64,000 nucleotides of DNA from Gemmatimonadaceae bacterium (GTDB taxonomy: Bacteria; Gemmatimonadota; Gemmatimonadetes; Gemmatimonadales; Gemmatimonadaceae): NCBI GenBank assembly GCA_016742275.1, contig JACVCD010000022.1, forward strand, positions 1 through 64,000, read 5' to 3'. The notes below the pieces were generated by a model. The model saw nothing but the letters and a program-made list of their open reading frames with translations, was not told the DNA's origin and searched no databases. How positions within the stretch are numbered: position 1 is the stretch's first letter; the number at the start of each line of letters is the position of its first letter. This document shows positions 1 to 16,467 of the stretch, piece by piece. The position numbers and the translations under genes are program-made.

Positions 1-710
1 GGTCCGGGTTGCAGGGCCTGACGCAGGGTCAGCGCCGCCGCGTCGTAGGCGCCCAGGGCGCGTTGCAGCAGGGCGCGATAGAGATGGGCGTAGAGCGATG
101 CGCGCCCATCGCCGGCATCGAGCACTCGCTCGAGACAACTGTCGGCATCGGTGAAGTGCCCCTGCAGCGCCAGCCAACGCCCCCACACCATGAGTGCGAG
201 GGGATCGTTCGGGTCGATGGCCCGCGCCTGTTCCAGTGGTGCGTGCGCGGCCTCGATTTGACCGTCCGTGACCAGCGCCCAGGCCAGCAGTGTGAGCGCC
301 TCCCCCTGCCCTGGCGCCAGCGCCAATGCCTTGCGCAGGGCCTCGATCGACTCCACGGTCTTGCCGAGCGACAGAAGATTCCAGCCCTTCTCCACGAAGG
401 TGGATGCGCCGAGATAGTCCACACGCAACGGCGTTGCCGGTGCTGCAGCAGCTGTTGGTGCGGGTGCCAGATTGAGCTGCTTCCATCGCTCAGCCATCGT
501 CTTTGCCGCAGCCTTAGCCTGCTGCGCAGCGAGAATGGCTTCGTCGGACTCGCGATAGAGCGCGATGATCTGTTGCTTGAGTGACTCCGCGCTCGCAGCC
601 GTGACAGGCACAGATGCACTGGAACGGATGGCTTCGTCCAGCGCGCGTGACAGCGCATCGAGGCGTTGCGCGAGAGTTTGTGCGGGCTCGCTGTGCAACT
701 CGTCGCTCAT
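1..710 (-). CDS. TPR-repeat protein, C-terminus beyond the window edge
   Basis: The reading frame opens at the ATG whose last base is 710 and stays open to the window edge, giving 236 codons. The first 70 residues are an Ala/Gln-rich helical segment (residues around 45 to 65 include LKQQIIALYRESDE). From about residue 90 the sequence becomes TPR-like, with alternating helices carrying the A, G, Y and P spacing of the repeat (for example KGWNLLSLGKTVESIEAL followed by RKALALAPGQGEAL). The start overlaps the stop of the upstream cheW-like gene by four bases (ATGA), so it is translationally coupled and belongs to the chemosensory operon. The role is probably as a scaffold; no catalytic domain is visible in the part present. 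Confidence 0.7.
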   Translation of the reverse strand, partial: MSDELHSEPAQTLAQRLDALSRALDEAIRSSASVPVTAASAESLKQQIIALYRESDEAILAAQQAKAAAKTMAERWKQLNLAPAPTAAAAPATPLRVDYLGASTFVEKGWNLLSLGKTVESIEALRKALALAPGQGEALTLLAWALVTDGQIEAAHAPLEQARAIDPNDPLALMVWGRWLALQGHFTDADSCLERVLDAGDGRASLYAHLYRALLQRALGAYDAAALTLRQALQPG

Positions 711-1219
711 GCGTCTGACACAGTTGCAGACGTGACTTCAACAGAAACTTGCCCACTGTGCCACCGGGCAATACGCGCGACATCGGTGACCCACACGATG
801 CGCGTCGCGTGTCCAAGACCTTCGCGCACATACTGTCCGACCACAAAGGACATCGGGGGCGCATCACCAGCGGCTTGCACCAGCGCCGTCTCGATCGCAC
901 GCACTTCAAACACGTGCGAGACCACCAGATTGGCGCTCCAGTCATCGGCACGCAGCGTCAACTGGCGAGCGAGATACTCGATGTCGTGGTCGACCGTCTC
1001 CTGCGCACGATGTGCAAGGGAAATCGGCAGCGTGAGTGTGGTCTGCGTTGATACAGCATCCACGGGCAACACGCGCTCGACCTGCTCCACCGGAAACGCA
1101 ATGGTGAACTGACCGATCTGGCAAACCACAAACGTGGAGCGCTCCACTTCCGGTGCACGGCGGCGAGTGCGCGCCACGCCAGCCAATGAGCGAAACGGGC
1201 TCGAATTCGAACTGCTCAT
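707..1219 (-). CDS. CheW-like adaptor, divergent
   Basis: The 170-residue product contains one CheW-like domain. The segment FVVCQIGQFTIAFPVEQVERV near residues 30 to 50 matches the first beta strands of the fold, and VVGQYVREGLGHATRIVWV near residue 130 suits its second half. CheW proteins couple receptors to the kinase CheA. This copy is far from the other CheW in the cluster (13910 to 14338) and lacks the usual motif of CheW subdomain 2, so it may be a specialised coupling protein or may read out GTPase or TPR partners. It overlaps cheB upstream and the TPR gene downstream by four bases each. Confidence 0.7.
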   Translation of the reverse strand: MSSSNSSPFRSLAGVARTRRRAPEVERSTFVVCQIGQFTIAFPVEQVERVLPVDAVSTQTTLTLPISLAHRAQETVDHDIEYLARQLTLRADDWSANLVVSHVFEVRAIETALVQAAGDAPPMSFVVGQYVREGLGHATRIVWVTDVARIARWHSGQVSVEVTSATVSDA

Positions 1220-2427
1220 GCGCCACCGGCCGAGGCGATAGGTGCCGTAGTTGCAGCTGAAGCACCACGCTGTGCACGCAGTTGACGCACTGCGCCTTCG
1301 ATGGCTGTCGCCAGTTCATCGAGTGGCACACCATGATCACTGCCAAGGGCACGACGGGCGGCATCGGGCATACCCGGAATGATGCTGGTCGACGCGTCCT
1401 GCACAATGGTGCCACCACCGGCGTCACGCACCTGCTTCAGTCCGTCGGCTCCATCTCGGCCCATACCGGTCATGACCACGCCCACGGCATTCGGGCCATA
1501 GACCTCAGCCACCGATGCAAAGAGGATGTCAGCAGCCGGCCGCACTCCCCACTGCGGTGCGTCATCGGTCAGCGCGAGACGTGGATGCTCACGTGGTCCA
1601 CGCACACGCAGGTGCCAACCCCCGGGCGCCACGTACACATGGCCCGCGCGCAGGGGTTCGTCCGACACCGCTTCCGCCACGCGGAGACGCGACGTGCCAT
1701 CGAGACGGCGTGCGAAACTGGAGGTAAATCCAGCAGGCATGTGCTGCACGACAATCACCGCGACATCGGGGAATGCGGACAACTGCGGAATGACACGTGC
1801 CAGTGCGGCCGGTCCACCAGTCGATGCGGCGATGGCTACAACGGTAAGTGGTTCGGCCACGGTGCGCGCCAAAATCTGTCCGTTGGCCGATGACGATACG
1901 AGTGCAGACTCAGTGCGCGTGCTGTGCGAGTTTGCTGCATGCGAGTTCGCCGTATGTGCGGTCTGCCCTGCATTGGCGCCACGCGCCACATGCACGGTGG
2001 CAGCCCCACGCAATGCTTGCAGCAACTGTTCGCGCACCAGATCGAGATCAAGGCTTATTGATCCCGATGGCTTTCGCACAAAATCCACGGCACCGCATTC
2101 GAGTGCACGTAGCGTGGCGTCCATACCGCCATGCGTCGTGCCGGCGGACAACATGACCACGGGGCGTGGATACTCGCGCATCAATCGCGTGAGCGCGCCC
2201 AGTCCATCAAGCCCCGGCATATCGACATCGAGCGTGACGAGATCCGGATCGAGTGCGGCCACCTGGCGCAATGCGTCCTCACCATCGCGCGCCGTGCCGA
2301 CGACTTCGAATTCGCCGCTCGATTGCACGACATCGGACACCAGTCGACGCATGAACGCACTGTCGTCAACGACCAGGACACGACGCGTAGCATGTGCGGT
2401 GTGCGACACGCGCTCAGAGGACGACAT
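1216..2427 (-). CDS. cheB: CheB protein-glutamate methylesterase/deamidase
   Basis: The 403-residue protein has the standard CheB layout. An N-terminal receiver domain has acidic residues D21 and D22, the phosphorylation site D67 in TLDVDMPG, and K119. A linker of about 50 residues rich in Ala, His, Asn and Ser follows, and then the methylesterase domain. The catalytic triad is visible as S202 (ASTGG), H229 (QHMP) and D325 (GMGRDG). CheB removes methyl groups from chemoreceptor glutamates and deamidates glutamines once it is phosphorylated by CheA. Its substrate receptors and the opposing methyltransferase CheR are not in this window. It overlaps cheD by 14 bases and the divergent cheW by four. 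Confidence 0.95.
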   Translation of the reverse strand: MSSSERVSHTAHATRRVLVVDDSAFMRRLVSDVVQSSGEFEVVGTARDGEDALRQVAALDPDLVTLDVDMPGLDGLGALTRLMREYPRPVVMLSAGTTHGGMDATLRALECGAVDFVRKPSGSISLDLDLVREQLLQALRGAATVHVARGANAGQTAHTANSHAANSHSTRTESALVSSSANGQILARTVAEPLTVVAIAASTGGPAALARVIPQLSAFPDVAVIVVQHMPAGFTSSFARRLDGTSRLRVAEAVSDEPLRAGHVYVAPGGWHLRVRGPREHPRLALTDDAPQWGVRPAADILFASVAEVYGPNAVGVVMTGMGRDGADGLKQVRDAGGGTIVQDASTSIIPGMPDAARRALGSDHGVPLDELATAIEGAVRQLRAQRGASAATTAPIASAGGA

Positions 2428-2893
2428 GTGGCCCCCGCACAGTCTTCACATCCACACGTCCGGTGCGCACGTCGAAATACACGGAGCGACCGTAGTCGCC
2501 ACCCACGTCTTCGCCAACAACGGGAAGATCCGCCGCCGCGCAGGCCGCGCGAGCCGCCTGCACATTGCGCACGCCCAGGCTCGCGGCACCGTGTGACAGC
2601 AATGACGCAAACATGGAAGCACCACCAACCAACCGAGCCTGAATTTCACCGGTGGCACCAAGCGCACGCATACGGCTCACCATCTCGGGAACCGCGAGTC
2701 CCGGGACCTTGCCCGCCTTCGGCACACCGACGGTCAATGCCACGTGCGGCAACAGCACATGCGCCAGCCCACCAACGCGACACTCGGCATCGTGCAGCGC
2801 AATGGCCACGCAGGAGCCGAGACCGACGGTGTAGAGTGTCAGGTCACCAGCGCCCACCGCCAGATCGGCAATTCCCACGGCTTTCTGCGTCAC
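2414..2893 (-). CDS. cheD: CheD chemoreceptor glutamine deamidase
   Basis: This is a complete 159-residue CheD. The family catalytic pair is visible as C28 in GLGSCVAIALHD and H45 in GGLAHVLLPH. CheD deamidates receptor glutamines and, in Bacillus and Thermotoga, also binds and stimulates the CheY-P phosphatase CheC; a cheC gene lies in the same operon at 10702 to 11322. The gene overlaps cheB downstream and the DUF4388-TPR gene upstream by four bases, so all three are probably translated together. Residues 75 to 100 contain the conserved family motif of a glycine-rich turn (VGGASMF) followed by the helix that packs on the active site. Confidence 0.93.
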   Translation of the reverse strand: MTQKAVGIADLAVGAGDLTLYTVGLGSCVAIALHDAECRVGGLAHVLLPHVALTVGVPKAGKVPGLAVPEMVSRMRALGATGEIQARLVGGASMFASLLSHGAASLGVRNVQAARAACAAADLPVVGEDVGGDYGRSVYFDVRTGRVDVKTVRGPHVVL

Positions 2894-4599
2894 GAGTCCG
2901 ACGGTGCCGCTACAAATGCATCGGCATCGTCGGTCATCGTCGACTCGACTGAAGAAGTGGAAACAGGCGGTGTGGGCGACTTGGACGGCGTCAGCGCCGC
3001 CAGATTGGCGCGCACAATGCGATGCTCGGGATCAAAGCGCAGCGCATCTTCCCAGGCAACACGGGCAGCATCGAGTGATCCACGGCGATAGTGGATGTTA
3101 CCGAGCTTGAGGTACACATCCGGACCGTGTGCCGGAGCGAGTCGCACCACACGCGTGAATGCGTCGAACGCTTCGTCATATCGCTGTGCGCGATAGAGAT
3201 AGTCGCCGAGGTTCTTGTGGAGGTGCGCAACATTGGCGTCGGCCAGCAACGCATGTTCGAGTGTGCGGGAAGCACCCTCGTACTGCCCACGGCGCTCCTG
3301 CACGACCGCCAAATTGTTGTGTAGCACCGCCGCCTGCGGATAGAGCTGCACACCCTCCTCGAGGAGCGCCGCGGCACGTGCGCTATCTCCGCCAACGGCT
3401 GCGGCCAAACTGGCGGCGTGATACCAGGCGGCTGACGGTTGCCGCGAACCCCAGTGTGCGCGCGCCAGAGCCAATGCGTCTTCCGCGACAGCCAGCGCAC
3501 CCTCTTCAAGGGCCTGATAGGCCCGCGACAAAGCCAGTCGCGGATCGGGTGATGCACCGGAGATGCGCTCGGCGTTGGCCAGCGACACCTCTGCAGCCTC
3601 GCGATCACCACACTGCATCTGCGCATACGCCAGATTGTGCCACACACTCGGCGGCGCATCCAATTCAGCAGCTGCACGGGCAAATGTGATCGCCGCCTCG
3701 GACCATGCACCCTGACGCGCGTGCACCAACCCGAGATGGAATCGCGCTACGCCATCTGCCTCACGCAATTCGAGCACACGCTCGAATTCCCGGCGTGCTT
3801 CTTCGAGCATGCCGGTGCGGTAAAAGGCCACACCGAGATTACGATGCTCCGCCACACGGCTCTCCGGTGGCGGCTGACGACGCGCGGCGCTTCGGCCAAC
3901 GCGCTGCGCGTAGCCTGCGCTGATCAAACCGTACAATGCCTTGCCCACATCGAACTCACCCAAGCCGGACCGTTCGATGATGGACTGCACGTCCTGTATG
4001 CCATCAAGCAATGGCAGGATACGCTCTTGCGACGCGCTGAGCGGCACTTCAATCGTTTGCAGTCGCGCCGCGTCGATTTCGAAAATCAGATCGAGACTCG
4101 GCAGCTTCTTTTCGATCAGCGACCACTCATCGACACGACGCGCACCTTCGAGCAGCAGCGTGTCTGCGCTGATGGACAGCAGCGGCGTGTCACGAGCCGG
4201 ATCGTCATCAGGCTCGAATGTGAACGTGCCCTGCGACCAGGTGAACAGGTGATACACTGCCTCTTCCACCTGGAAGCGATGCTCCGTGAGCACCACATGG
4301 GCGTCCACCTGTCCTTCACGAATCAGCGCCTGCGCGAGCGCACGTTCATCCTGAGGAGGCAGTTGCGCGGCGAGACGCGCCAACTCGTCGGCCGCCACAA
4401 TGCCAAGACGCACCAGTCGATCGCCGAGCCGGTCGCGACGATTCACCATGGAGGCGTGCTCGACGCGACCGTCCACGAAAAGCACGGTACCAAAGCTGCC
4501 TTCACGCGCCACACTGAGGCAGCCGGTCTTCTGACCAAGCGCAAGCAGTTGCAGCACGTCGGCGAGACTCGCCTCGCTGAGATTTCCGCGAATGGCCAT
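2890..4599 (-). CDS. DUF4388 (PatA N-terminal type) protein with TPR repeats
   Basis: The 569-residue protein starts with a DUF4388/PatA_N domain at about residues 1 to 110 (LADVLQLLALGQKTGCLSV, then VLFVDGRVEHASMV). A second region to about residue 230 ends in a winged-helix-like segment (ILPLLDGIQDVQSIIERSGL). The C-terminal half, from about residue 250 to 530, is a run of TPR repeats with patterns such as NLGVAFYRTGMLEEARREFE and KLGNIHYRRGSLDAARVAWE. DUF4388 domains are common in Deltaproteobacteria, Cyanobacteria and Gemmatimonadota near chemosensory and GTPase genes; their biochemical role is not established. The gene overlaps cheD by four bases and follows the AAA+ gene by 13 nt. It resembles the shorter DUF4388 gene at 7007 to 8011. 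Confidence 0.85.
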   Translation of the reverse strand: MAIRGNLSEASLADVLQLLALGQKTGCLSVAREGSFGTVLFVDGRVEHASMVNRRDRLGDRLVRLGIVAADELARLAAQLPPQDERALAQALIREGQVDAHVVLTEHRFQVEEAVYHLFTWSQGTFTFEPDDDPARDTPLLSISADTLLLEGARRVDEWSLIEKKLPSLDLIFEIDAARLQTIEVPLSASQERILPLLDGIQDVQSIIERSGLGEFDVGKALYGLISAGYAQRVGRSAARRQPPPESRVAEHRNLGVAFYRTGMLEEARREFERVLELREADGVARFHLGLVHARQGAWSEAAITFARAAAELDAPPSVWHNLAYAQMQCGDREAAEVSLANAERISGASPDPRLALSRAYQALEEGALAVAEDALALARAHWGSRQPSAAWYHAASLAAAVGGDSARAAALLEEGVQLYPQAAVLHNNLAVVQERRGQYEGASRTLEHALLADANVAHLHKNLGDYLYRAQRYDEAFDAFTRVVRLAPAHGPDVYLKLGNIHYRRGSLDAARVAWEDALRFDPEHRIVRANLAALTPSKSPTPPVSTSSVESTMTDDADAFVAAPSDS

Positions 4600-4612
4600 C
4601 AGCTACACCGCC

Positions 4613-6361
4613 TCATCGATACTCCTCGATCAGGCGTCCACCGAGATCAGGCCACTGCCACACCACCTTCTCACGATCCAGGAAGTAACGATCGGGTTCG
4701 CCCGGTGTGCGCGGCACAAGCTGTTCCATGCGCGGCCGTTCGCGCGCTGGTAGTGCCACGACCAATCCGCCTTCGAAGCGTGAACGCAGACGATCTGCCA
4801 GTCCTGCCAACGCACGCGGTGCTCGCGCGCTGGTGAGCACCACCTGCGCGCCCTGCGACATGAGCTGATTGAACAGATGAAACAGTTCGTCCTGCGTGCG
4901 TTCCTTGCCCTCAAGTTCCTGAATGTCGTCGAGGATAAACACATCGGCACTGCGATAGCGTGCGCGCCACTGCTCCGTGCCGCCTTCCTGCATGGCCGCA
5001 ATGAGTTCTTCCACGAAGAGTGTGGCGGAAAGGCAGGCAATGCGCTTGCCCGCCCCCCGTTCACGCATGGCATTGCCGATGGCGTGCGCCACGTGTGTCT
5101 TGCCACTGCCCGACGGGCCGTGAATGAGCAGCGGATTGTATCGCGAACCGGGCTCGGCAATCACCGCATCCACGGCCTTGAGTGTCAGTTGGGACTCGGG
5201 CGTGGAATCGAGTGCCGCGCGCAGAAACGCCGGAGACGGTGCTGGCAGTGGCTGCGCAGTCTCGAGGATTCGTTGCAACAGCTGCTGCGCGGCTGGGATG
5301 GCCTCGACATTCCGGAACGCTTCGTGTCCCGACCATGCGGAATCCACCGCTACCGCCTGTGCTTCGAGACCGCGCAGATGATCAACGGCGGCGGCAAATG
5401 CCTGCAACAGTCCGTTTACATCAGGGGCAACGGGAAGCGACAGCGCCCGTTCGAGCACTGTGACGCGCCATCCCTCAGGACGCCACTGCGCCAGCGCATC
5501 ACCGAGTTGCACACGCCAGGGTTCGACACGTGTTTCGACTTCCTGCAGCACATCGGCGAGAAAGCCTTCGTAGTCGGTTCCCGCCGGAATGATGGCTTCG
5601 ATACGATCAGGCACACCGGTCGGTGCACGTTCACCGAGCACCGCGCGGACATCGGCGGCGGTAACAGGCGTACCTTCGAGCTGCTGAAAAGCCGAAAGCT
5701 TGTTGAGTGCGCCCTTGAGTTCGCGCACATTGCCAAACGGCAAACGGGCCACGGCATCGAGCACGCCATCGGCGAACTGCACGCTGCGTTCCTGCGCCAC
5801 GTTTCGAAGGATGGCCAGACGCATCTCAAAATCCGGCGCGCCGACATCGACTACCAGTCCGCCGGAAAGGCGTGACAGCAAACGCTCGTCCACGTCCGGA
5901 ATGTCCGAGGGCTGACGGTCACTGGTCAGCACCAACTGCTGCCCACCCTGCAGCAGCACATTCAGCAGGCGAAGCAATTCGCTCTGTGTTTCGCGCTGAC
6001 CCGTCAGGAACTGGATGTCATCGATGACCAGCAGATCGACCTGCTGAAAGTCCATCAGAAATTGATGCGGCTGGCCGCTGGCGATCGCGCTGTGCAGATG
6101 GGCCGCGAGTTCATCACCCGATGTGAATCGTACACGCAGAGTGGCCCGTCCCTCGCAGGCACGGTGGGCAATTGCGCCCACGAGGTGCGTCTTGCCCAGC
6201 CCTGATCCGCCGTAGATCACCAGCGGATTGTAGGCCTGTCCTGGCGCGTCAGCCACAGCACGTGCGGCCGCGTGTGCGAGACGATTGGACGCCCCGACCA
6301 CGAAGGTATCGAACCGCAGTGCGCGATCTACCGGCGCCAACACTCCGCTTTCACCGCTCAT
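4613..6361 (-). CDS. Tandem DnaA-like AAA+ ATPase without a DNA-binding domain
   Basis: The 582-residue protein holds two DnaA-type AAA+ modules. The first has Walker A GGSGLGKT at residues 51 to 58, Walker B LLVIDD at 110 to 115 and the DnaA sensor II region NVRELKGAL near 211. The second has Walker A GPSGSGKT at 415 to 422 and Walker B VFILDD at 474 to 479, but stops soon after the core. Neither is followed by the helix-turn-helix domain IV that DnaA uses to bind origins. It is therefore unlikely to be the replication initiator; placed between an MglA-type GTPase and a DUF4388 gene, it may be an ATP-driven switch in the chemosensory pathway (inference). The start chosen is the ATG ending at base 6361, four bases past the GTPase stop; an in-frame TTG at 6406 would overlap the GTPase gene by 41 bases. 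Confidence 0.85.
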   Translation of the reverse strand: MSGESGVLAPVDRALRFDTFVVGASNRLAHAAARAVADAPGQAYNPLVIYGGSGLGKTHLVGAIAHRACEGRATLRVRFTSGDELAAHLHSAIASGQPHQFLMDFQQVDLLVIDDIQFLTGQRETQSELLRLLNVLLQGGQQLVLTSDRQPSDIPDVDERLLSRLSGGLVVDVGAPDFEMRLAILRNVAQERSVQFADGVLDAVARLPFGNVRELKGALNKLSAFQQLEGTPVTAADVRAVLGERAPTGVPDRIEAIIPAGTDYEGFLADVLQEVETRVEPWRVQLGDALAQWRPEGWRVTVLERALSLPVAPDVNGLLQAFAAAVDHLRGLEAQAVAVDSAWSGHEAFRNVEAIPAAQQLLQRILETAQPLPAPSPAFLRAALDSTPESQLTLKAVDAVIAEPGSRYNPLLIHGPSGSGKTHVAHAIGNAMRERGAGKRIACLSATLFVEELIAAMQEGGTEQWRARYRSADVFILDDIQELEGKERTQDELFHLFNQLMSQGAQVVLTSARAPRALAGLADRLRSRFEGGLVVALPARERPRMEQLVPRTPGEPDRYFLDREKVVWQWPDLGGRLIEEYR

Positions 6362-6365
6362 CGAT

Positions 6366-6983
6366 TCATGCCGCTCGGGTCGAATTCGACCCGTCTTCGG
6401 CGCCAAGACGCTTCATCACACGTGTGCCAAGCGCACGCAGCGTATCGAACACACCCGTTCCCTGCGTGGCATCTGCGGAAAATTCCGGCACACCGCGGAA
6501 GTTGAGTGCGCTCGACAGTTCGTCCACGCTGGCAACAAGCGACGGTGGCAAGTCCTGCTTGTTGTACTGCAGCACCACCGGGAGATCGCGGGCATCTACA
6601 CCGTGTTCGGCGAGATTCGCGTGCATGTCCTGCAAGCTCTCGATGTTCTCATCCCAGCGATGCCGCTGGCTGTCGGCCACGAATGCAATACCATCGGCAC
6701 CCTGCAGCACGAGCTGGCGAATAGCCTTGTAGTACGGCTGACCAGGCACTGTGTACAGCTGAAAGCGCACGTGATACGATCCAACCGTGCCGAGATCCAC
6801 AGGCAGATAGTCGAAAAACAGCGTGCGGTCGCGGCGTGTGGCGAGGGATGTGAGCGTGCCCACCTGCCCCGTCGGCAATGCCGAATGGAGGTAAGTGAGA
6901 TTGGTCGTCTTTCCGGACCGTCCGGGTCCGTAGTAGACCAACTTGCAGGTGATCAGCCGCGTGGCATGATCGACGATGGGCAT
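6366..6983 (-). CDS. MglA-type small Ras-like GTPase
   Basis: The 205-residue protein matches the bacterial MglA GTPase family. The P-loop GPGRSGKTT lies at residues 19 to 27, the switch II region reads TVPGQPYYKAIRQLVLQGAD, and the guanine-specificity motif is NKQD in LQYNKQDL. MglA sets the leading pole in Myxococcus gliding and type IV pilus motility, acting below the Frz chemosensory system. Here the gene is embedded in a che operon, which supports an equivalent link between a CheA pathway and cell polarity. No mglB (roadblock-fold GAP) gene is recognisable nearby. The C-terminus (from about residue 190) is a short tail beyond the usual MglA length of about 195. Confidence 0.92.
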   Translation of the reverse strand: MPIVDHATRLITCKLVYYGPGRSGKTTNLTYLHSALPTGQVGTLTSLATRRDRTLFFDYLPVDLGTVGSYHVRFQLYTVPGQPYYKAIRQLVLQGADGIAFVADSQRHRWDENIESLQDMHANLAEHGVDARDLPVVLQYNKQDLPPSLVASVDELSSALNFRGVPEFSADATQGTGVFDTLRALGTRVMKRLGAEDGSNSTRAA

Positions 6984-7006
6984 TCGTCGCGTCCTCGCTC
7001 TTTCGC

Positions 7007-8011
7007 TTACGACAACAACTCGGCCAGCCGCGCTGTCAGCGAAGCCTGCTCACGCAGTCTCGCAGCAACGGCAGCCGGCAACGATCCGCGCAGCGCCCGG
7101 TGCCACAGGGCGAGCGCGCCATGCATATCTCCCTCGCGGGCTAACGAATCGCCCAAGGCGGCGTCGGCCAGCGAAACAGCTTCAGTAGTATCAACAGACG
7201 GCTCGATCGCCACCTGCGCAACCATCGGCGTGCGTTGACGCGGCATTCCCTCCGGGGTCAGCACACCCACCTCGATGGGATCGAACACTGCGTCAAACTC
7301 GAGATCATCGTCGAGGTCGCTTTCGATCACAACGTTCCCCGGAATCCACAAGTCGTGTGGATCGACCGCCACCATGGCAGGTGGCGTGGGGTTTCGTCGC
7401 TGCGGCGCCTGCCCGTCATGCAGAGTCAGCACACCTGACGCAATCAGATCGTGCACCATCTCGGCGATCTCAATCAGCGGACGTGACATCGTCGATGCGA
7501 GCGCCATGAGATCCTGCTGTCCGTCGATGCGGGTCAGCAGCTCCCACTGCGCCGGTGACAGGCGAAGCAAGGGCAACTGCTGGGCCTCGACTTCGATGAA
7601 TGCCGGTACCACTCGCGCATGCGGCACGCGCGAATCGATACGTGCCCACACTTCGGCACGAAGAGCGGCTTCCATCAACATCGGCTCGATGGCCATGTGC
7701 ACTGCTGAATCCGGCGCCGGGTTCTCCGCGGGAGCGAACCGGAAGTAGCCTTCGCGCCAGGCCAGCACATCGAGCACGGCATCTTCCACGAGATGCGCGT
7801 CTTCCTGACGACGATTGGGGTGCACCGCGCGATCGATACCGGACAGTGGTTCGACCACCGCATCAACGATCGCACCCTGACGAAATACGATCGTGCCGCA
7901 ACGCCCTTGCAGCGGCGCCTCCACATGCAACGCGCCCTGCTTGCGACCGAGCGCCAGCAGTTGCAGCACCTCGGTGAGGCTGAGATCGCGGATTTGCCCT
8001 TCGAGTGCCAT
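7007..8011 (-). CDS. DUF4388 (PatA N-terminal type) protein
   Basis: The 334-residue product begins with a DUF4388 domain (LTEVLQLLALGRKQGALHV, then IVFRQGAIVDAVVEP) at residues 1 to 110. A second domain to about residue 215 has the same winged-helix-like tail as the larger paralogue (LLTRIDGQQDLMALASTMSR). The last 110 residues are probably disordered, followed by a single TPR-like helix pair (DAALGDSLAREGDMHGALALW). The start is taken as the ATG ending at 8011, seven bases after the upstream TPR gene stops; an in-frame GTG at 8041 would create a long overlap. It lies 23 nt from the mglA-type gene. The function is unknown; location suggests a partner of the GTPase. Confidence 0.83.
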   Translation of the reverse strand: MALEGQIRDLSLTEVLQLLALGRKQGALHVEAPLQGRCGTIVFRQGAIVDAVVEPLSGIDRAVHPNRRQEDAHLVEDAVLDVLAWREGYFRFAPAENPAPDSAVHMAIEPMLMEAALRAEVWARIDSRVPHARVVPAFIEVEAQQLPLLRLSPAQWELLTRIDGQQDLMALASTMSRPLIEIAEMVHDLIASGVLTLHDGQAPQRRNPTPPAMVAVDPHDLWIPGNVVIESDLDDDLEFDAVFDPIEVGVLTPEGMPRQRTPMVAQVAIEPSVDTTEAVSLADAALGDSLAREGDMHGALALWHRALRGSLPAAVAARLREQASLTARLAELLS

Positions 8012-8018
8012 GGCGCGC

Positions 8019-10682
8019 TCAGCTCGCTCGTTGGTTGGCACTCAACTGCGCGGCACGCGCGAGTGCTTCCATCGCGCGTGAGCGCCACACGGTGGACTCC
8101 GTACGAGACGCGAGTCCCTGCCACCGCGCTACCGCATCGCGCCAACGCGCCTGATCGGCCAATAGCACGGCATCGAACCACCATGCACCTGCGCGATCAG
8201 GATCGTGGCGCAACATGCGATCCACGGCAACGCGCGCGTCATCGGTGCGCTCTTCGGCGACCAGCACATCCGTGAGTACTTCGAGCGCATCGAGATCGGT
8301 GGGCACGCGATGCAGGTGTGCGACCAGCAATTGCCGCGCTTCACTCAAACGACCGGCATCACGGTGTACCTGTGCCAACTCACACAGGGCGTCGCGCCAC
8401 TCAGGTGCGATCGCCAGTGCCGCCACGAGTTCCAGCCGTGCGGCGAGCAAGTCGCCGCGTTCACGAAGCACGCGGGCGATGGCTACGCGTGGTGTTGGGC
8501 GCGTCGGATCGAGCGCGAGGGCCCGGCGGTACGCGCCGAGTGCGATGGCTGCATCACCCAGTCGAATGGCCACGTCGCCGGCGTAGTGCAGCAGTGCGGC
8601 GCTGTCGCACTCCTGACCAAGCACACGAAGCAAGGCAGCGCGCGCGGCGGTCAAGCTATCCGCGTTGGGCGCATCTACCATGTCGATATTCGCCTCGGAC
8701 AGGCGCGCGGCCGCCAACAGCGTCAGCAATTCCGGATCGGACGACGCCTGTTCGAGCAGTGGCATCAGCAACGGCAAAGCCTGGGCGGCGTAGTCGAGCA
8801 GGCACAATGTGCGTGCTTCGCCGCGAGTGGCGCGTTGCCACGCCTGCCGCATGGCCTGCCGGACCTGCGGATCGGCTGCCGACGTCTCATCGGCAACAAG
8901 CGGTTCCAGCAGCTCGCGCGCGGCGCGATAGCGCTCCACTGCCTCACCGTGCAGTGTGCGCTCCGCAAATCCGTCAGCAACTTCACACCAATCGATGGCA
9001 CGGGCCACCGGTGACTTGTGCAGTTCACGGCGCGGCTGCTCCGGAAGCAGTGCATCCACGCCCTGCTCGGCGAGTGTCACACCGGCCAACGGCGCGCCGC
9101 CAACCAGGGCCAACAGGTCTACCGGGCCGACCGCATCAGGACACTCGCGCTGCAAATCAATGCCCACAGCGAGACGTGGCGCACGCCGAATGCTGGCCAG
9201 ACGCAGCGCCGCTTCGGTTTCACGTGCGGCACCTTCGTCATCACCTAAACGCGACAGGGCATCGGCCAGGACATAGCGCGCTTCCGCATGGGTCGGCCGA
9301 TGCTCCACTGCGTGCACCAACGCCTGACGTGCTTCATCCCAACGCTCCACGCGAGCCAGCACGACACCGAGCGCATGCCATGCGTCGGCATCGCGCGGAT
9401 GAAACGCCACAACTTCGCGCAGCAGGGCCAGAGCTTCCGACGGGTCACCGTATTCGAGTGCCCAGCGCGCGAGATTGAGTCGCGCAAGAACGAGCGTCGG
9501 ATCGAGTTCGGCCGCGCGCAGCAGTGCTTCGCGTGCGGCCTGTGCATCGCGACGATCCGCGAGGGCTACGCCGAGGTTGTTATAAGCCAACGCATGACGC
9601 GGATCGATGCGGAGGGCGCGTCGATAGCTGTCTGCGGCGGCGGCAACTTCACCACGCTGATGCATCGCCACGCCATGCTCGTTCCACGAGCGTGCGGTTT
9701 CCTGACGCGCGAGCAGCTCCTCGTAGCGCGCCTGCGCCTGCCGTGACTCACCATCGAGCAGATCGAGTTCGGCCAACGCGTGCTGTACGAGATGCGGGTC
9801 CTCACCCTGCGCCAATGCCCGCTCGAACTCCTGTCTGGCCTCGCGAAAATATCCACGCTGACGGAACGCCAATCCCAGGCCATGCCGCGCCAACGCGCCA
9901 TCGCCTTCGACCTGCATGATCGGCGTGGACGGTGCGGGATCGAGCAACAGATCGCCTTGCACAGTATCAAGGCGTGGATTGAGCTCGGACGCGTGTCGCG
10001 CGGCCAGCAACGCGGCCTCATGACGTCCCATATCACCAAGCACAAAGCCGCGCAGCAGATGCGCCTCGGCCTGACGCGGCGACTCTTCGAGCAGCTGTTC
10101 GAGTGTCTCGAGCGCCTGTTCATTCTGGCCACGCTGATACAGCACTTCCGCCAGATGCAGACGGGCATCACCGGCCGCATGTGCATTCACCGCGCGCTCG
10201 AACCACCGTTGGGCGCGACGTAAGTCGCCGGCACGCTGTTCGATGAGCCCACGCTCGAACAATGCCGCCGCGTCATCCGGATCTTCGGCGATCAGCGCAT
10301 CAAGCAGTCGCGTTGCGTCACTAGTGCGACCAATCAGACGAAGCAGCTGAGCCTGATCACGCTGGGCCTGCCGATTGTCAGGGTCCGCAGCGACTTCGTC
10401 CTGCACATGACGCAGACGCTCGTCGCAGGCGCCAGGCTGACGCGCTGCCACTTCGAGATTGCGCGCAGCGGTCCGCATACGCGGATCAAGCGTCAGCGCG
10501 CGAAGAAATGCGTCAACGGCTTCGGCGTGCAATCCCCGCGTGTGATAGAGCACGCCGAGATTGTTGAATGCGCCGGGGTCACGCGGATCGACGCGCGCGA
10601 CCATGCCGCGCAAGACATCGAGGTCGCGACCGGCGGTAGCGCCTGCGGCAACGCCTGCAGTAGTACCTGCGGCGGGTGACAT
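8019..10682 (-). CDS. Large TPR-repeat protein
   Basis: The 887-residue protein is almost wholly TPR repeats, with at least a dozen copies of the 34-residue pattern (for example NNLGVLYHTRGLHAEAVDAF near residue 45 and NNLGVALADRRDAQAAREAL near residue 370). There is no signal peptide, membrane segment or catalytic domain. TPR superhelices normally assemble protein complexes, so this is a candidate scaffold for the Che, GTPase and ATPase proteins encoded beside it. A short Ala/Gly/Thr-rich segment (residues 3 to 20) precedes the first repeat. The gene follows cheC by 19 nt and overlaps nothing downstream. Confidence 0.85.
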   Translation of the reverse strand: MSPAAGTTAGVAAGATAGRDLDVLRGMVARVDPRDPGAFNNLGVLYHTRGLHAEAVDAFLRALTLDPRMRTAARNLEVAARQPGACDERLRHVQDEVAADPDNRQAQRDQAQLLRLIGRTSDATRLLDALIAEDPDDAAALFERGLIEQRAGDLRRAQRWFERAVNAHAAGDARLHLAEVLYQRGQNEQALETLEQLLEESPRQAEAHLLRGFVLGDMGRHEAALLAARHASELNPRLDTVQGDLLLDPAPSTPIMQVEGDGALARHGLGLAFRQRGYFREARQEFERALAQGEDPHLVQHALAELDLLDGESRQAQARYEELLARQETARSWNEHGVAMHQRGEVAAAADSYRRALRIDPRHALAYNNLGVALADRRDAQAAREALLRAAELDPTLVLARLNLARWALEYGDPSEALALLREVVAFHPRDADAWHALGVVLARVERWDEARQALVHAVEHRPTHAEARYVLADALSRLGDDEGAARETEAALRLASIRRAPRLAVGIDLQRECPDAVGPVDLLALVGGAPLAGVTLAEQGVDALLPEQPRRELHKSPVARAIDWCEVADGFAERTLHGEAVERYRAARELLEPLVADETSAADPQVRQAMRQAWQRATRGEARTLCLLDYAAQALPLLMPLLEQASSDPELLTLLAAARLSEANIDMVDAPNADSLTAARAALLRVLGQECDSAALLHYAGDVAIRLGDAAIALGAYRRALALDPTRPTPRVAIARVLRERGDLLAARLELVAALAIAPEWRDALCELAQVHRDAGRLSEARQLLVAHLHRVPTDLDALEVLTDVLVAEERTDDARVAVDRMLRHDPDRAGAWWFDAVLLADQARWRDAVARWQGLASRTESTVWRSRAMEALARAAQLSANQRAS

Positions 10683-10701
10683 CGGCTTCTCGCCGCCCGA
10701 C

Positions 10702-11322
10702 TCAGGCGAGACGCAGTGCGCGCAGCATCACCTGCAGCGAGGCCGGATCCGGAAGCATCAGGAAGAAGCCACGCAGTGTCTGCTGGCTGTCGCGCACGAG
10801 AAATTCGCTCTCGACGCAGATGATGGCATCCGGATCTGCGGAGAATTCGCTGAAGGCGCTCGTGAGTACGGCCACTGACATGTCCACCACCAGCGTGGGT
10901 GGCGACGGCAGCAGCAGCATGCCGAGGAAATCGCTGAGCGCGTTCATGTAGGCGCCGCTCAGGATATTGCCGGTTTCCTTGATGGCTGACGTCTCGAGTT
11001 CGCTGAACGCCACCGACGATCCGATCGGCCGGCGCAGCATCAACTCGGCCAGGCGCAACACGGTGGGCTTTGGGAACACGAGCAACGTGCGGCCCGTGAG
11101 ATCGCCCAGCATGTGCATGACCACAGCGGCCACCGGCTCTTCCTCGGCCGAAAACTGCGCGGGCAGCTCCTCGACACTGGCGACGCTGATGGCGGGCACC
11201 TTGATCATGATGGTGCTGCCGGTCATCTGGGACAGGGCGGTGGCCGCATGCCCGGCACCGATGTTCGCGGTCTCCCGCAGGGCATCGAGCTGAATGTTCT
11301 TGAGCGACTGAATTGCGGCCAT
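10702..11322 (-). CDS. cheC: CheC-type CheY-P phosphatase
   Basis: The 206-residue product carries both phosphatase motifs of the CheC/FliY/CheX family, E17-x-x-N20 (ALRETANIG) and E116-x-x-N119 (AIKETGNIL). These residues dephosphorylate CheY-P. In Bacillus and Thermotoga CheC works with CheD, which is encoded further along this operon. The start is the ATG ending at 11322, preceded by a purine-rich GAGGGTGGGG; an in-frame GTG eight codons upstream (11346) is less likely. The 88 nt between cheA and this gene is the largest gap in the operon, so a separate regulatory signal there is possible, though no clear promoter was seen. Confidence 0.93.
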   Translation of the reverse strand: MAAIQSLKNIQLDALRETANIGAGHAATALSQMTGSTIMIKVPAISVASVEELPAQFSAEEEPVAAVVMHMLGDLTGRTLLVFPKPTVLRLAELMLRRPIGSSVAFSELETSAIKETGNILSGAYMNALSDFLGMLLLPSPPTLVVDMSVAVLTSAFSEFSADPDAIICVESEFLVRDSQQTLRGFFLMLPDPASLQVMLRALRLA

Positions 11323-11410
11323 CGTAACCCCACCCTCACTTCGCACGTCGGTGTCCTATGCCGAGGATTGTCCGGGCATGGTTGCGGGTGTGGCGGTCAT
11401 CACAGCCGCA

Positions 11411-13540
11411 TCACACCACGCTCGTCACATCAACGATCAAGGCAGGGCTCCCGTCACCAAGGACCGTGGCCCCACTGAACCACGGTGCCGCCCCCTGCAC
11501 CACATCCAGCGGCTTGACCACGATGTCCTGCTGCGAAAGCAGCCCGTCTACGAGGACAGCCGCCCTTTTTCCGGCCATTTCGACCACCGCCACATGTGGA
11601 TCAGAGGCCTCGTCTGCTGGCAGTCCGAAGCGCTCCCGCAACGCCACCAGTGGAATGACCTCGTCCCGGATGGTGACGGCATTCTGCGCCCCGCGCGCCC
11701 GCAGGTCCTCGTGGTAGGCCATGGCCTCTTCAACATGGGCAGCTGGGAGCGCAAAAACGTCGCCTCCGACCTGCACCAGCAATGCCCGTGTAATGGCCAG
11801 CGACGCAGGCAGACGCATGGTGACCACGGTGCCTACGCCGTCGATCGTTTCGAGCTCGAGCTGCCCGCCCAGCGCCCGCACACGCGTGTTGACCACGTCG
11901 ACGCCAACGCCACGTCCGGAGACCTTCGACACTTTCTGTGCGGTCGAGAATCCCGGGTGCGCGATCATGTCGAGCAGCGTGTCATCATCGAGCGGCCCGT
12001 CCTGATCGGGCGCGAGCAGTCCAAGCGCCTGCGCACGCGTGCGCACCGCTTCGCGATCGATACCGCGGCCGTCGTCCTGCACCTGCACCACCACGGTGGC
12101 CCGATCACGCGCCGCGCGCACGATCAATTCGCCGGATGCCGGCTTGCCACGTGCGACGCGGGTAGCCGGATCTTCGAGACCGTGGTCAACCGCATTTCGC
12201 AGCAGATGCAGCACCGGATCGGCGAGCGCATCGAGCAGCGAACGATCGAGCGCCAACTCGCGGCCTTCCATCACGAATCGCACATCCTTGCCGAGGTCGC
12301 GCGCCATATCGCGCACGAGACGCGGGAAGCGGTCGAAGACCTGCGCGATGGGCAGAAGACGCGCCTGCAACACCTCATCCTGCAGCACCGAAACCAATCG
12401 CGCTGCGTCACGTGCCGCACGCTGGATTTCGCGATCGGGATGTTCGGTGGCTTCAACCGCACGAACCAATCGATCGCGCGTAATCACCAGCTCCCCAACA
12501 AGATCGAGCAATGCATCGAGACGCCGCGCATCGACACGGACCGTGCTGTGGGCAGCCTCGGGCGCCCGCACATCGAGGCGAGCATCGAGACGTGTATCGA
12601 GACGCACATCATGGCGGCCATCCGCGCGTGCTCCCGATGCACCATCCGCACCGTCTGTAGCCGAACCACGTACGGATCCACCAAGCACTTCACGCAGCAG
12701 TGGCGTGTTCAGCAGATTGGCCGCGCCACGATCCTCATGCTGTGTGAGCAGCGGGCGACGCACATTCACATGCGCCACATCTCCGGCGCTGCGCACGGCC
12801 TGCTCGACACGTTCGTCTTCGGCGCCCGTGACGAGAATGACACGGAACACTCCATCGAACGATTCCTGCGACCACTGCGCCTGCGCCGGATGCGTGCTGC
12901 GCACGAGCCCCACCTGCTGCAGCTTGCCCAGCACAAGCAGCGCGCGCACGCCCTTGAGCGGGCAGTCAGCGGTCAGCCGGACGTCGACATGCCGTACATT
13001 CGTGTGCACAGGCAATTCAGCGACGACCTCGTCATGGACTGAGGAGATCGGTGACGGCGCCGCAACCGGAGGAACAACTTCGTCCGATTCAGGTTGACTG
13101 TTCGATGCAGATGCAGTCGTGTCGCGTTCAATTCGAACAACAAACTCACTGACCCGGCGCGCCAGTTCAGAGACCTCAACTTTGGGCTCCGTCTCTCCAC
13201 CCTCACCCGTTACCGATGCAATGGCATCACGCAACAACGCTGTGCCATCAAACAACAGGTCCAGCACCGCCGGACGTAACGCTTCACTGCCCGACCGGAG
13301 AGGCTCACACCGCGACTCGAGCGCGTGCGTCAATTGCTCCACGACATCATGACCCATGGCCGCAGCCATGCCCTTGATGGTGTGCATGCCGCGAAAGATC
13401 GCGCCTATTGGCGCCGCATGATCCTGCGCGCCTGACGATGTGCCCGGCGTCTGCTCGAGTGTGAGCAGCGCCGTATCAATTTCTGCGAGATGCTCCCGCG
13501 ATTCCGCCGCGAACAACGCGGCATACCGCGATGCATCCAC
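11411..13540 (-). CDS. cheA: CheA chemotaxis histidine kinase
   Basis: The 709-residue protein has all five CheA domains. P1 (1 to 120) carries the phospho-accepting H53 in GMHTIKGMAAAMG. P2 (about 180 to 275) resembles the CheY-binding domain of Thermotoga-type CheA (DCPLKGVRALLVLGKLQQ). P3 follows near 335 (VGELVITRDRLV). The P4 kinase domain has the N box (LLRNAVDHGLEDP), G1 (DDGRGID) and G2 (SGRGVGVDVV). The C-terminal P5 is the CheW-like domain that docks CheW and receptors. CheA passes phosphate to CheY (13548) and CheB (1216), both in this operon. It sits seven bases after cheY. Confidence 0.96.
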   Translation of the reverse strand: MDASRYAALFAAESREHLAEIDTALLTLEQTPGTSSGAQDHAAPIGAIFRGMHTIKGMAAAMGHDVVEQLTHALESRCEPLRSGSEALRPAVLDLLFDGTALLRDAIASVTGEGGETEPKVEVSELARRVSEFVVRIERDTTASASNSQPESDEVVPPVAAPSPISSVHDEVVAELPVHTNVRHVDVRLTADCPLKGVRALLVLGKLQQVGLVRSTHPAQAQWSQESFDGVFRVILVTGAEDERVEQAVRSAGDVAHVNVRRPLLTQHEDRGAANLLNTPLLREVLGGSVRGSATDGADGASGARADGRHDVRLDTRLDARLDVRAPEAAHSTVRVDARRLDALLDLVGELVITRDRLVRAVEATEHPDREIQRAARDAARLVSVLQDEVLQARLLPIAQVFDRFPRLVRDMARDLGKDVRFVMEGRELALDRSLLDALADPVLHLLRNAVDHGLEDPATRVARGKPASGELIVRAARDRATVVVQVQDDGRGIDREAVRTRAQALGLLAPDQDGPLDDDTLLDMIAHPGFSTAQKVSKVSGRGVGVDVVNTRVRALGGQLELETIDGVGTVVTMRLPASLAITRALLVQVGGDVFALPAAHVEEAMAYHEDLRARGAQNAVTIRDEVIPLVALRERFGLPADEASDPHVAVVEMAGKRAAVLVDGLLSQQDIVVKPLDVVQGAAPWFSGATVLGDGSPALIVDVTSVV

Positions 13541-13547
13541 GGCCTAC

Positions 13548-13913
13548 TCAGGCCGCAAGAACGCGATTCACCGCTTCCAGCACACGACTCGGCTGGAACG
13601 GCTTGACGACAAAGTCCTTGGCACCGGCCTGAATGGCCTCGACCACCAGCGCCTGCTGTCCCATGGCGCTGCACATGAGAATGCGCGCCGACGGATCATG
13701 CTTGGTGATTTCACGCACCGCATCGATGCCGCCCATGTCAGGCATCACGATGTCCATGGTCACGAGGTCCGGGCGCAGATGTTTGTACTTCTCGACGGCC
13801 TGCACGCCCGTCTCGGCTTCACCGACAACCTGAAATCCCGCCTGGGTGAGAATGTCTCCCACCATGGTGCGCATGAAAATCGCGTCGTCGCAGATGAGTA
13901 CCGTCCGGCTCAC
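13548..13913 (-). CDS. cheY: CheY single-domain response regulator
   Basis: A 121-residue stand-alone receiver domain. The acidic pocket is D9 and D10, the phosphorylation site is D54 (TMDIVMPDMGG), the switch hydroxyl is S82 (CSAMGQ) and the invariant lysine is K104 (VKPF). The downstream target is not shown by the sequence; without flagellar genes nearby, the target could be the MglA-type GTPase module rather than a motor switch. It overlaps cheW by four bases and precedes cheA by seven. Confidence 0.95.
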   Translation of the reverse strand: MSRTVLICDDAIFMRTMVGDILTQAGFQVVGEAETGVQAVEKYKHLRPDLVTMDIVMPDMGGIDAVREITKHDPSARILMCSAMGQQALVVEAIQAGAKDFVVKPFQPSRVLEAVNRVLAA

Positions 13914-14338
13914 CGTTCCCTCTCCTCAGCTGAATGCAGATGCCGCGCACACCAGGCCACAGCGTCAAACGGATGAACAGAGCGCGCATCATCGGAATCG
14001 TCTTCCGCGACCGCCACGTCCTCTACTCCGTCCACGGCAATCCCGATCGGCCGGGAGCCATACTGCAACAGGACGATTGACCCCGCCACGACGGCACGCG
14101 GGCCGGACGCGGCCACCCGACCGGCGTCGCTCGCGCTGCGGAGGGCCAGGTCGAGTACCGTCACAATGGCGCCGCGCACATTCACGATGCCGGCCTGTAC
14201 GACCGGTGCGCCCGGGACCCGACGAAGCCCGGTGGGTCGTACCACTTCGCGCACCTGCGCGATGGGAATGCCGAGCCGCTGTCCTTGAGAGCGCACAACC
14301 AACCACAGCGGACGTTGGTCGTCCGCCATGTCATCCAT
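13910..14338 (-). CDS. cheW: CheW adaptor protein
   Basis: This is a canonical CheW domain: LWLVVRSQGQRLGIPIAQV at the start, then GIVNVRGAIVTVLDLAL, which is the strongly conserved CheW motif. It links chemoreceptors to CheA. The start is set at the ATG ending at 14338 (142 residues), four bases past the rluD stop. An in-frame ATG at 14410, with an upstream AGGA, would give 166 residues and a 68-base overlap with rluD, and cannot be excluded. The gene overlaps cheY by four bases. Confidence 0.88.
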   Translation of the reverse strand: MDDMADDQRPLWLVVRSQGQRLGIPIAQVREVVRPTGLRRVPGAPVVQAGIVNVRGAIVTVLDLALRSASDAGRVAASGPRAVVAGSIVLLQYGSRPIGIAVDGVEDVAVAEDDSDDARSVHPFDAVAWCARHLHSAEERER

Positions 14339-14342
14339 CGCG

Positions 14343-15377
14343 TCAGCTATCGCTTGAGCTGTCGCGTTCGCGAGGTTGCGCGTCTGTGGTGTGGTAGAAG
14401 CCGAAGACATCGAGGGGATCCTGATTGGACTCGAGTTCGGGCATCTCGCTCAACACCGCCAGCGAGTGACGGAGGTCGGGAGGCAATGGCGACCGGAGGT
14501 CGACCACTTCGCCCGAAACGGGATGCACGAAACGCAACCAGGCCGCATGCAGGAAATGTCGACGGGGAGGCAGTGCCGCGAGTTTGCGACCGCCACCACC
14601 ACCGTACGTGTCATCGCCTATCACCGGGTGCCCCACACTCGACAAGTGGATGCGAATCTGATGCGTGCGCCCGGAATGCAGGTGCGCGCGCAGGAGATCC
14701 ACACTGTCGAAGCGGGCCAGCCGCGTGAAGTCGGTGCGTGCGGCCTTCCCCGTCTGGACGATTGCCATGCGGGTTCGGTCTCGCGGATCCCGCGCGAGGG
14801 GTTGATCCACCGTCAGCGTGTCGCCGGTGAGGTGCCCCCAGCACACGGCCACGTAGCGGCGGGTTACCTGCCGCGCGGCCAGCGCCGTGCTGAGCACCCG
14901 GTGCGATGCATCGGTCTTGGCCACCACAAGCAGCCCCGACGTATCCTTGTCGAGACGATGCACGAGCCCTGCGCGATCCTCACCGCCACCTTCGGCCAGC
15001 GGCTCACCACGCCCCATGAGCGCATTCACCAAGGTCCCGGTCCAGTTGCCGGGCGCCGGATGCACCACCATGCCGGCCGCCTTGTCCACCACCAACAGAT
15101 GCTCGTCTTCGAACACGATGTTGAGCGGAATCTGCTCGGGCACGATATCGCGGCCCGGCGGCGGCGGAATGGTCACGTCGATGACATCACCGGACTCCAC
15201 ACGGTACGACGCTTTCTCTCGGCGGCCACCCACCTGCACGGTGCCGTTGGCAATCAACGTGGCGGCCTGTGTGCGGGACAACTCGCCGTGACGCGCCACG
15301 ACGAGATCGAGACGATCACCCGCCTCTTCGCCAATCGTTACCTGATACGTGCGGGCCGCAGGTTCAGACTGCGTCAT
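14343..15377 (-). CDS. rluD: RluD-family 23S rRNA pseudouridine synthase
   Basis: The 344-residue protein has an N-terminal S4 RNA-binding domain (LSRTQAATLIANGTVQVGG) and the RluA-family catalytic domain. The catalytic aspartate lies in GLVHRLDKDTSGLLV; the downstream GRTHQIRIHLSS and GHPVIGDDTYG motifs are also intact. RluD isomerises uridines in helix 69 of 23S rRNA. The start is the ATG ending at 15377, with AGGGTG six bases upstream; an ATG nine codons earlier (15404) has no good ribosome-binding site. It overlaps the lspA gene upstream by 14 bases. The last 30 residues are an acidic, probably disordered tail not typical of the family. Confidence 0.9.
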   Translation of the reverse strand: MTQSEPAARTYQVTIGEEAGDRLDLVVARHGELSRTQAATLIANGTVQVGGRREKASYRVESGDVIDVTIPPPPGRDIVPEQIPLNIVFEDEHLLVVDKAAGMVVHPAPGNWTGTLVNALMGRGEPLAEGGGEDRAGLVHRLDKDTSGLLVVAKTDASHRVLSTALAARQVTRRYVAVCWGHLTGDTLTVDQPLARDPRDRTRMAIVQTGKAARTDFTRLARFDSVDLLRAHLHSGRTHQIRIHLSSVGHPVIGDDTYGGGGGRKLAALPPRRHFLHAAWLRFVHPVSGEVVDLRSPLPPDLRHSLAVLSEMPELESNQDPLDVFGFYHTTDAQPRERDSSSDS

Positions 15378-15969
15378 CGGTGGCACCCTGGGCCTTGAGC
15401 GCATCCTGCTGCGCGAGGTCCTGTTGCCACAGTGCGATCACGAGACACACCGCACCGATAGACACACAGGTGTCGGCCACGTTGAACGTCCAGAATCGCA
15501 CTGAGCCCAGGCCAATGTCGATGAAATCGACCACGCCTTCACGCAGACGCACACGATCAAGCAGGTTGCCGATAGCACCACCCACAACGACCGGTACACC
15601 AAACGCGGCCAGACGCGACACGCGCGTGAGGTCAGCCGTAGCGCGCAGCAGCACAATCACGATGATGAGACTGAGGCCCGCAAAGATCCACCGCGACCCG
15701 GGCCCGAGGTGCATGCCAAAGGCCGCGCCGGGATTGTAGGCCAGCGTGAATCGCACCACGTCGCCGATGATGCGATGCGGCATGTGACGCGGCACGAGAT
15801 GCTCGACCGCCAATGCCTTGGTCACAAAATCGAGAGCCACACAAATGGCCACGATGATCCAGAATCGCATCGTCGTCGAAGCGGCCGGCACATCACTGAT
15901 GGCCGCCGATGCACTGGCCGCGCGCGGATGCACGCGCGATTCAGACGACATATTGGGCGACACGTTCAT
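15364..15969 (-). CDS. lspA: Lipoprotein signal peptidase (copy 1)
   Basis: The 201-residue product is an LspA aspartyl peptidase that cleaves prolipoprotein signal peptides after lipidation. The two catalytic aspartates are in GNLLDRVRL and in FNVADTCVS, and YNPGAAFG is the conserved motif between transmembrane segments 1 and 2. About 35 hydrophilic residues precede the first membrane helix, which makes it longer than the usual 160. The start (ATG ending at 15969) overlaps the stop of the second lspA by four bases. It is about 40 percent alike by eye to the neighbouring copy, so the two look like an old tandem duplication. Confidence 0.92.
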   Translation of the reverse strand: MNVSPNMSSESRVHPRAASASAAISDVPAASTTMRFWIIVAICVALDFVTKALAVEHLVPRHMPHRIIGDVVRFTLAYNPGAAFGMHLGPGSRWIFAGLSLIIVIVLLRATADLTRVSRLAAFGVPVVVGGAIGNLLDRVRLREGVVDFIDIGLGSVRFWTFNVADTCVSIGAVCLVIALWQQDLAQQDALKAQGATDDAV

Positions 15970-16466
15970 GACTCCGATGCGGCAAGCGCGGCTTCCTGAC
16001 AACGCTCTTCCTGCCAGAGCACGAGCGCCAAAAGAATGGCACCGGTGCTCACGGCCATGTCCGCCACATTGAACGTGGGCCAGCGATGCAGGCCAATGCC
16101 CACGTCGATGAAATCGACGACGCCGAGTTCGGAGCGAATGCGATCGATGACATTGCCAACCGCGCCGGCCGCCACGAGGGCAATGGCCAACACCTTCTTC
16201 ATGTCATCATCGGCTGCCTGACGATACAACCGCCAAAGCACGCCAAGCGCGACCACCGTGAGCGTCATGAACAGCCAGCGCGAATACGGTCCGAGATGCA
16301 GACCAAATGCAGCGCCGGGATTGTACACGAGCGCAAAACGTACCCAGTCGCCAATGACGGGTCTGGGTACGCCGGCCGTGACCATGGTGGAAACCGCCAC
16401 GGCCTTGGTGATGAAATCGAGCACCACCACCACGAGAAAAACGGGAACTGCAACGATCGCCTTCAC
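15966..16466 (-). CDS. lspA: Lipoprotein signal peptidase (copy 2)
   Basis: The 166-residue product has the same LspA landmarks as its neighbour: YNPGAAFGLHLG, GNVIDRIRSELGVVDFIDV and FNVADMAVSTG, containing both catalytic aspartates. There are four predicted membrane helices. No ATG fits the length; the likely start is a GTG ending at 16466, one base after the zinc-finger gene stops and preceded by GAAGAAGG. This length equals the family norm. It overlaps the second lspA by four bases. The stop and start arrangement indicates co-translation of both peptidases. Confidence 0.9.
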   Translation of the reverse strand: MKAIVAVPVFLVVVVLDFITKAVAVSTMVTAGVPRPVIGDWVRFALVYNPGAAFGLHLGPYSRWLFMTLTVVALGVLWRLYRQAADDDMKKVLAIALVAAGAVGNVIDRIRSELGVVDFIDVGIGLHRWPTFNVADMAVSTGAILLALVLWQEERCQEAALAASES

Positions 16467-16467
16467 G

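Follow-up and report, generated by a model that had tools for sequence, protein, structure and literature searches.

Introduction

The described systems closest to the locus analyzed here are the initiator DnaA and its single-domain relative Hda, the MglA module of Myxococcus and the PATAN regulators of cyanobacteria. Two reports on Myxococcus describe MglA as acting on type IV pili via the TPR protein SgmX (PMC7519303, PMC7668184), and a report on cyanobacteria links PATAN proteins to the pilus system (PMC7690835). In Escherichia coli DnaA, V211 and R245 form the H/B motif, and the V211A protein is unable to bind single-stranded origin DNA (PMC12122000). The window, the 64,000-nucleotide stretch of DNA analyzed in this work, encodes a protein with two DnaA-type AAA+ domains (AAA1 and AAA2) within a chemosensory operon (Table 1). 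No published description of a tandem DnaA-type protein was found in the open-access PMC literature.

Table 1. Features of the tandem AAA+ protein and of the operon that encodes it, in window coordinates
Feature	Residues	Position	Strand	Evidence and remarks
Weak CheW-like protein		707..1219	minus	E 0.0037, under curated cut-off
CheB		1216..2427	minus	Pfam
CheD		2414..2893	minus	Pfam
DUF4388 (PATAN)-TPR protein, 569 aa		2890..4599	minus	Constant neighbor; Pfam and relatives' loci
Tandem DnaA-type AAA+ protein, 582 aa		4613..6361	minus	ATG start; Pfam, NCBIfam, genome scan, model
AAA1 base (DnaA domain IIIa)	14-172	5846..6322	minus	Pfam, model, residue alignment
AAA1 lid (domain IIIb) with sensor 2 NVREL	173-243	5633..5845	minus
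Family-specific five-helix linker	263-369	5255..5575	minus
AAA2 base	385-537	4751..5209	minus	Pfam, model, residue alignment
Conserved C-terminal tail FLDREKVVWQWPDLGGRLIEEYR and neighbors	558-582	4616..4690	minus	In nearly all architectures, mini-proteins included
MglA-type small GTPase		6366..6983	minus	Match to MglA 5ymx, E 5.6e-62
DUF4388 protein		7007..8041	minus	Pfam
TPR-repeat protein, 887 aa		8019..10682	minus	Pfam
CheC-like CheY-P phosphatase		10702..11346	minus	Pfam, NCBIfam
CheA histidine kinase (HPt, HATPase, CheW-like domain)		11411..13540	minus	Sequence; ortholog synteny
CheY response regulator		13548..13913	minus	Sequence; synteny
CheW		13910..14410	minus	Pfam

Results

Domain organization of the tandem protein

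The original prediction placed the gene at 4613-6361, which was borne out, and the strand it had left unstated is minus. Its proposal of two DnaA-type AAA+ domains in one 582-residue chain also holds, with Walker A and Walker B intact in both (GGSGLGKT at 6188-6211 and LLVIDD in AAA1; GPSGSGKT at 5096-5119 and VFILDD in AAA2). Pfam returns two matches to Bac_DnaA (PF00308; E = 2.1e-98, 327.6 bits), the NCBIfam DnaA model TIGR00362 covers two stretches of the protein at 438 bits, and the whole-genome scan detects the two AAA+ copies separately at 178 and 156 bits. AAA1 is a complete DnaA domain III. Its base retains the equivalents of the arginine finger and of R281, and the modeled domain superposes on domain III of B. 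subtilis DnaA, giving a TM score of 0.95 on the target and an rmsd of 1.6 Å. AAA2 is here an incomplete domain III from which the lid with sensor 2 is gone, a deletion shared by most of the genus of the window protein; most relatives have this lid. When the window protein and a relative that has the full AAA2 lid were modeled with AlphaFold, the mean pLDDT values were 89 and 87, and confidence was high inside the domains and low between them (pTM 0.47 and 0.50, respectively).

The linker between the two domains gave nothing above the curated cut-off in Pfam or NCBIfam. Its first helix has the pattern EF.sFL.Dv...V. The predicted absence of DnaA domain IV from both halves was confirmed: only about 45 residues follow AAA2, too few to accommodate it, and a domain IV concealed in the linker was rejected by a Pfam scan at E ≤ 10 that gave no Bac_DnaA_C there. 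As a positive control, the Pfam scan detects Bac_DnaA_C (2.5e-28) and DnaA_N in the real DnaA of the genome, which is encoded on another contig and has the full set of domains. Domain I (PF11638) is absent from the 25 Pfam families listed, and the start of AAA1 at residue 14 leaves no room for it.

The Walker A lysine and the first Walker B aspartate are present in both halves of all 78 relatives with both domains. The equivalent of the R285 arginine finger is found in 66/78 AAA1 and 73/78 AAA2 domains, and the basic KERTQ motif of DnaA is kept by AAA2 and reversed to acid in AAA1. The Walker and arginine-finger residues retained in most members show that, where it is present, the ATPase matters.

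Operon context and the constant partner

The chemosensory operon was recovered as predicted and its GTPase is genuinely of the MglA type, matching Myxococcus xanthus MglA with E = 5.6e-62. A 4-base gap separates the mglA gene from the tandem gene in the window, and the two genes also adjoin in families f1-f4 and f9. The usual order in these families is cheW-cheY-cheA-cheC-TPR-DUF4388-(Roadblock)-mglA-tandem-DUF4388TPR-(cheR)-cheD-cheB, with single genes missing from some genomes. DUF4388 is the domain published as PATAN.

The AAA+ pair and the Che-MglA genes come apart in both directions. The locus of family f5 consists of RluD, the tandem gene and the DUF4388-TPR gene only, with no MglA or Che genes. 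Conversely, genus g14 keeps most of the locus, including CheA, CheY, CheC and MglA, and has lost both AAA+ domains, so the Che-MglA locus can persist without the AAA+ pair. The DUF4388-TPR protein is the constant partner, since f5 retains it without MglA and Che and f1-f4 and f9 retain it with them. It is also present in 101/103 genomes with the tandem protein, and the two genes are adjacent in every fetched locus that holds both. Their stop and start codons overlap as TGATG in 79 of about 120 loci and the genes abut in 17 more, an arrangement that suggests translational coupling; 13 bases separate them in the window.

Several other properties of the region were noted. The 6984-7006 gap between mglA and the DUF4388 gene has no room for a Roadblock gene in the window, and the two Roadblock genes of this genome are on other contigs. 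Relatives outside the genus carry 1-2 kb of extra genes at this position, and in f9 a Roadblock/LC7 (MglB-like) gene occupies the gap (L077, 1019-1507). The operon (707-14410) contains no recognized chemoreceptor gene, and 12 MCP signaling domains are encoded elsewhere in the genome. A tandem pair of lspA-like signal peptidase II genes occupies 15364-16826 on the minus strand, a pair also present in L058 and L059, and the frame of the upstream one opens with a DksA/TraR-like stretch.

Distribution and origin of the two halves

Gemmatimonadota are soil and water bacteria, and the whole-genome searches covered this phylum only. The tandem protein was detected at a strict threshold of E < 1e-57 in 103/200 Gemmatimonadota genomes and spans much of the class Gemmatimonadetes, with full-length orthologs that are 40-87% identical in dozens of genomes across the order and class. 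A GTDB scan for the DUF4388-TPR protein found none recognizably outside Gemmatimonadota among the best 80 of 326 loci.

Each half matches Bac_DnaA, in agreement with the prediction that both come from the same DnaA AAA+ clade. In the domain tree, which like the AU tests was calculated without degenerate AAA2 rows, AAA1 forms one clade and AAA2 forms one clade (100/98). A tree that unites AAA1 and AAA2 as a single clade against DnaA equals the free tree in fit (p-AU 0.516). Trees in which the two halves arose separately from Gemmatimonadota DnaA have a poorer fit, with values above the 0.05 rejection level (p-AU 0.076 and 0.139). The phylogeny called for in the original prediction is thus compatible with duplication, and it does not reject the alternatives. 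A single recruitment followed by duplication is the simplest, though not a proven, reading of these trees.

The C-terminal tail

The tail, a feature that the original prediction did not mention, has the consensus EKvvWdWPd..gRlIEElR and is located at the extreme C terminus. Among 125 open reading frames upstream of the DUF4388-TPR gene, 114 end in the WP tail, 9 in a variant form (mostly with the proline changed) and 2 have no tail. A motif general to the proteins of the genome was ruled out, as each genome has a single confident match to the tail profile, which invariably lies where this upstream gene ends. The grooves of TPR proteins often hold C-terminal peptides. By analogy, the fixed C-terminal place of the tail and its TPR neighbor suggest the DUF4388-TPR protein as its docking partner.

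Erosion of the AAA+ domains

The gene upstream of the DUF4388-TPR gene was classified in 129 genomes. Both AAA+ domains are present in 84 (6 of which were assigned from AAA2, as their open reading frames, mostly at contig ends, begin within the protein), AAA2 is decayed with no recognizable Walker A in 16, AAA1 alone remains in 11, neither AAA+ domain in 11 and only the linker in 1; 6 genes fall into none of these classes. The AAA2 of f5 lacks both Walker A and Walker B. No clear case of AAA2 kept and AAA1 lost was found in the 129 genomes, with L116, located near a contig start, being ambiguous. AAA1 is the more conserved module and AAA2 is accessory. In the DUF4388-TPR tree (FastTree, with long-branch warnings) the AAA-less set forms one clade with a support of 100 and the AAA1-only state arises by several changes. 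The AAA-less genomes are confined to three genera of family f1, and most other f1 members have both domains, which argues that the AAA-less state is derived.

The mini-proteins of these 11 genomes are encoded by open frames of 66-122 aa beside the DUF4388-TPR gene and have no AAA+ domain; the one in L101 is the end of a 268-aa frame. Their core of 54-58 residues consists of linker helix 1 and the tail, as in EYDDFLTDLQSVVAQRVEELRARQSAETPAAFNDDEKVVRVWPELSGRIMEEFR. Seven pairs gave dN values of 0 to 0.17, dS values of 0.18 to 1.05 and ratios of 0 to 0.34, and the core is under purifying selection. As judged from sequence conservation, the conserved element of the family is this linker helix plus the extreme C-terminal tail rather than the ATPase pair.

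Discussion

We infer the function of the tandem protein throughout from sequence, synteny, predicted structure and analogy. The reading we favor, with a probability of roughly 0.6, is that it serves the DUF4388-TPR protein as an adaptor subunit, within an MglA/chemosensory module whose probable role is the control of type IV pili or cell polarity. The tandem protein would partner the DUF4388-TPR protein encoded directly downstream, its acidic Trp-Pro tail would dock on the TPR protein, and the AAA+ pair may act as an ATP-dependent oligomerization or conformational switch on the complex of the two. The DnaA-type AAA+ unit would then be an ATP-dependent module that is dispensable across lineages, and only in that sense, because the ATPase is important where it is present. 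A role of the protein at the replication origin is unlikely. For the output, our best guess is a type IV pilus or polarity module, given the control of pili by MglA and a TPR protein in Myxococcus and by PATAN proteins in cyanobacteria. An MglA homolog is present in 103/103 tandem genomes, at least one PilT-family gene in 103/103 and at least two in 102/103, counts that are confounded by shared ancestry and are weak evidence alone. Genomes lacking the DUF4388-TPR protein (most of family f7, and the f5 genus g54) usually carry no more than one PilT-family gene, and genomes with the module mostly have at least two. A flagellar function was rejected, as a FliG match is present in 41/103 tandem genomes and absent from 62/103.

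The original prediction was of an ATP switch that reads the state of the GTPase or of CheY. In its explicit form, AAA1 and AAA2 open and close with nucleotide to report MglA-GTP or CheY-P to the motility machine, in keeping with the position of the gene between MglA and DUF4388-TPR in f1-f4, the catalytic and arginine-finger residues retained in both domains and the presence of MglA somewhere in every tandem genome. The separation of the AAA+ pair from MglA and Che in both f5 and g14, together with the Walker-less AAA2 of f5, leaves the proposal unsupported as stated. An ATP switch is possible; the reading of GTPase or CheY state is not required and is partly contradicted, and we consider this explanation unlikely. 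The persistence of the operon after loss of the AAA+ domains also weighs against an Hda-like replication regulator that would contact DnaA via the DnaA-type interface of its AAA+ domains and link initiation to motility signaling. Such a role would suit DnaA-clade domains that carry the R285 equivalent (66/78 for AAA1, 73/78 for AAA2) and lack domain IV in a genome with a separate true DnaA. However, the protein has no N-terminal clamp-binding motif, with only loose matches inside the AAA+ cores, it scores 159.8 bits against the 194.8-bit cut-off of the Hda model even when summed over two domains, and the locus is mostly of the motility type, which makes this role improbable.

Residues of the H/B motif bring a DNA-associated factor into consideration, in which AAA2, like DnaA, would bind single-stranded DNA and would anchor the complex to the nucleoid or set its position there. 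AAA2 has the equivalent of R245 in 72/78 relatives and of K243 in 63/78, and the V211 position is hydrophobic in most of the 78. Glu replaces R245 in 65/78 AAA1 domains, AAA2 is the module most often decayed or lost and the KER residues may be retained for structure, so we regard DNA binding as very improbable. Degenerate Walker motifs and truncated domains in several members are what a series of decaying DnaA copies near the operon, or of assembly artifacts, would leave. The probability of this is negligible, and it is refuted by the conservation of full-length orthologs at 40-87% identity in dozens of genomes, the invariant catalytic residues and the purifying selection on the mini-proteins.

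Beyond the adaptor function itself, we hold more tentatively, at a little under even odds, that a short helix-plus-tail peptide on the PATAN-TPR protein of an MglA and type IV pilus module acquired and duplicated the AAA+ engine of DnaA for the ATP-dependent regulation of motility and shed it in several lineages, which would make this a new family of signaling adaptors. If so, the DnaA initiator ATPase has moved from replication into motility signaling or cell polarity, and a natural series of genomes with two ATPases, an ATPase and a pseudo-ATPase, one or none shows which parts matter. There is a practical consequence as well. The doubled domain lifts the score over the TIGR00362 equivalog cut-off (438 versus 343.9 bits), so annotation pipelines may name the tandem gene DnaA.

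The module resembles the MglA-SgmX/TPR system of Myxococcus in its bona fide MglA, its TPR and chemosensory proteins, the PilT-family ATPases of the genome and the Roadblock (MglB-like) gene in the loci of relatives. We know of no counterpart of the DUF4388-TPR protein or of the DnaA-type AAA+ domains in the Myxococcus modules. It shares DUF4388, found in two operon proteins, with the cyanobacterial PATAN regulators of type IV pili, but the domain is fused here to TPR repeats instead of receiver domains and the link to the pilus motor is putative. Like Hda/HdaA (TIGR03420), the tandem protein is a DnaA-type AAA+ protein without the HTH domain; unlike them, it has two domains, shows no clamp motif, scores below the Hda cut-off and belongs to a motility-type operon of Gemmatimonadota. 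With DnaA domain III (PF00308; B. subtilis 8bv3, A. aeolicus 1l8q/3r8f) it has in common the fold, Walker A and B, the arginine finger (R285), the initiator-type helices and, in AAA1, the lid with sensor 2. It differs from DnaA in having two copies per chain joined to a linker and tail of its own, in lacking domains I and IV, and in residing in a genome that has a true DnaA elsewhere.
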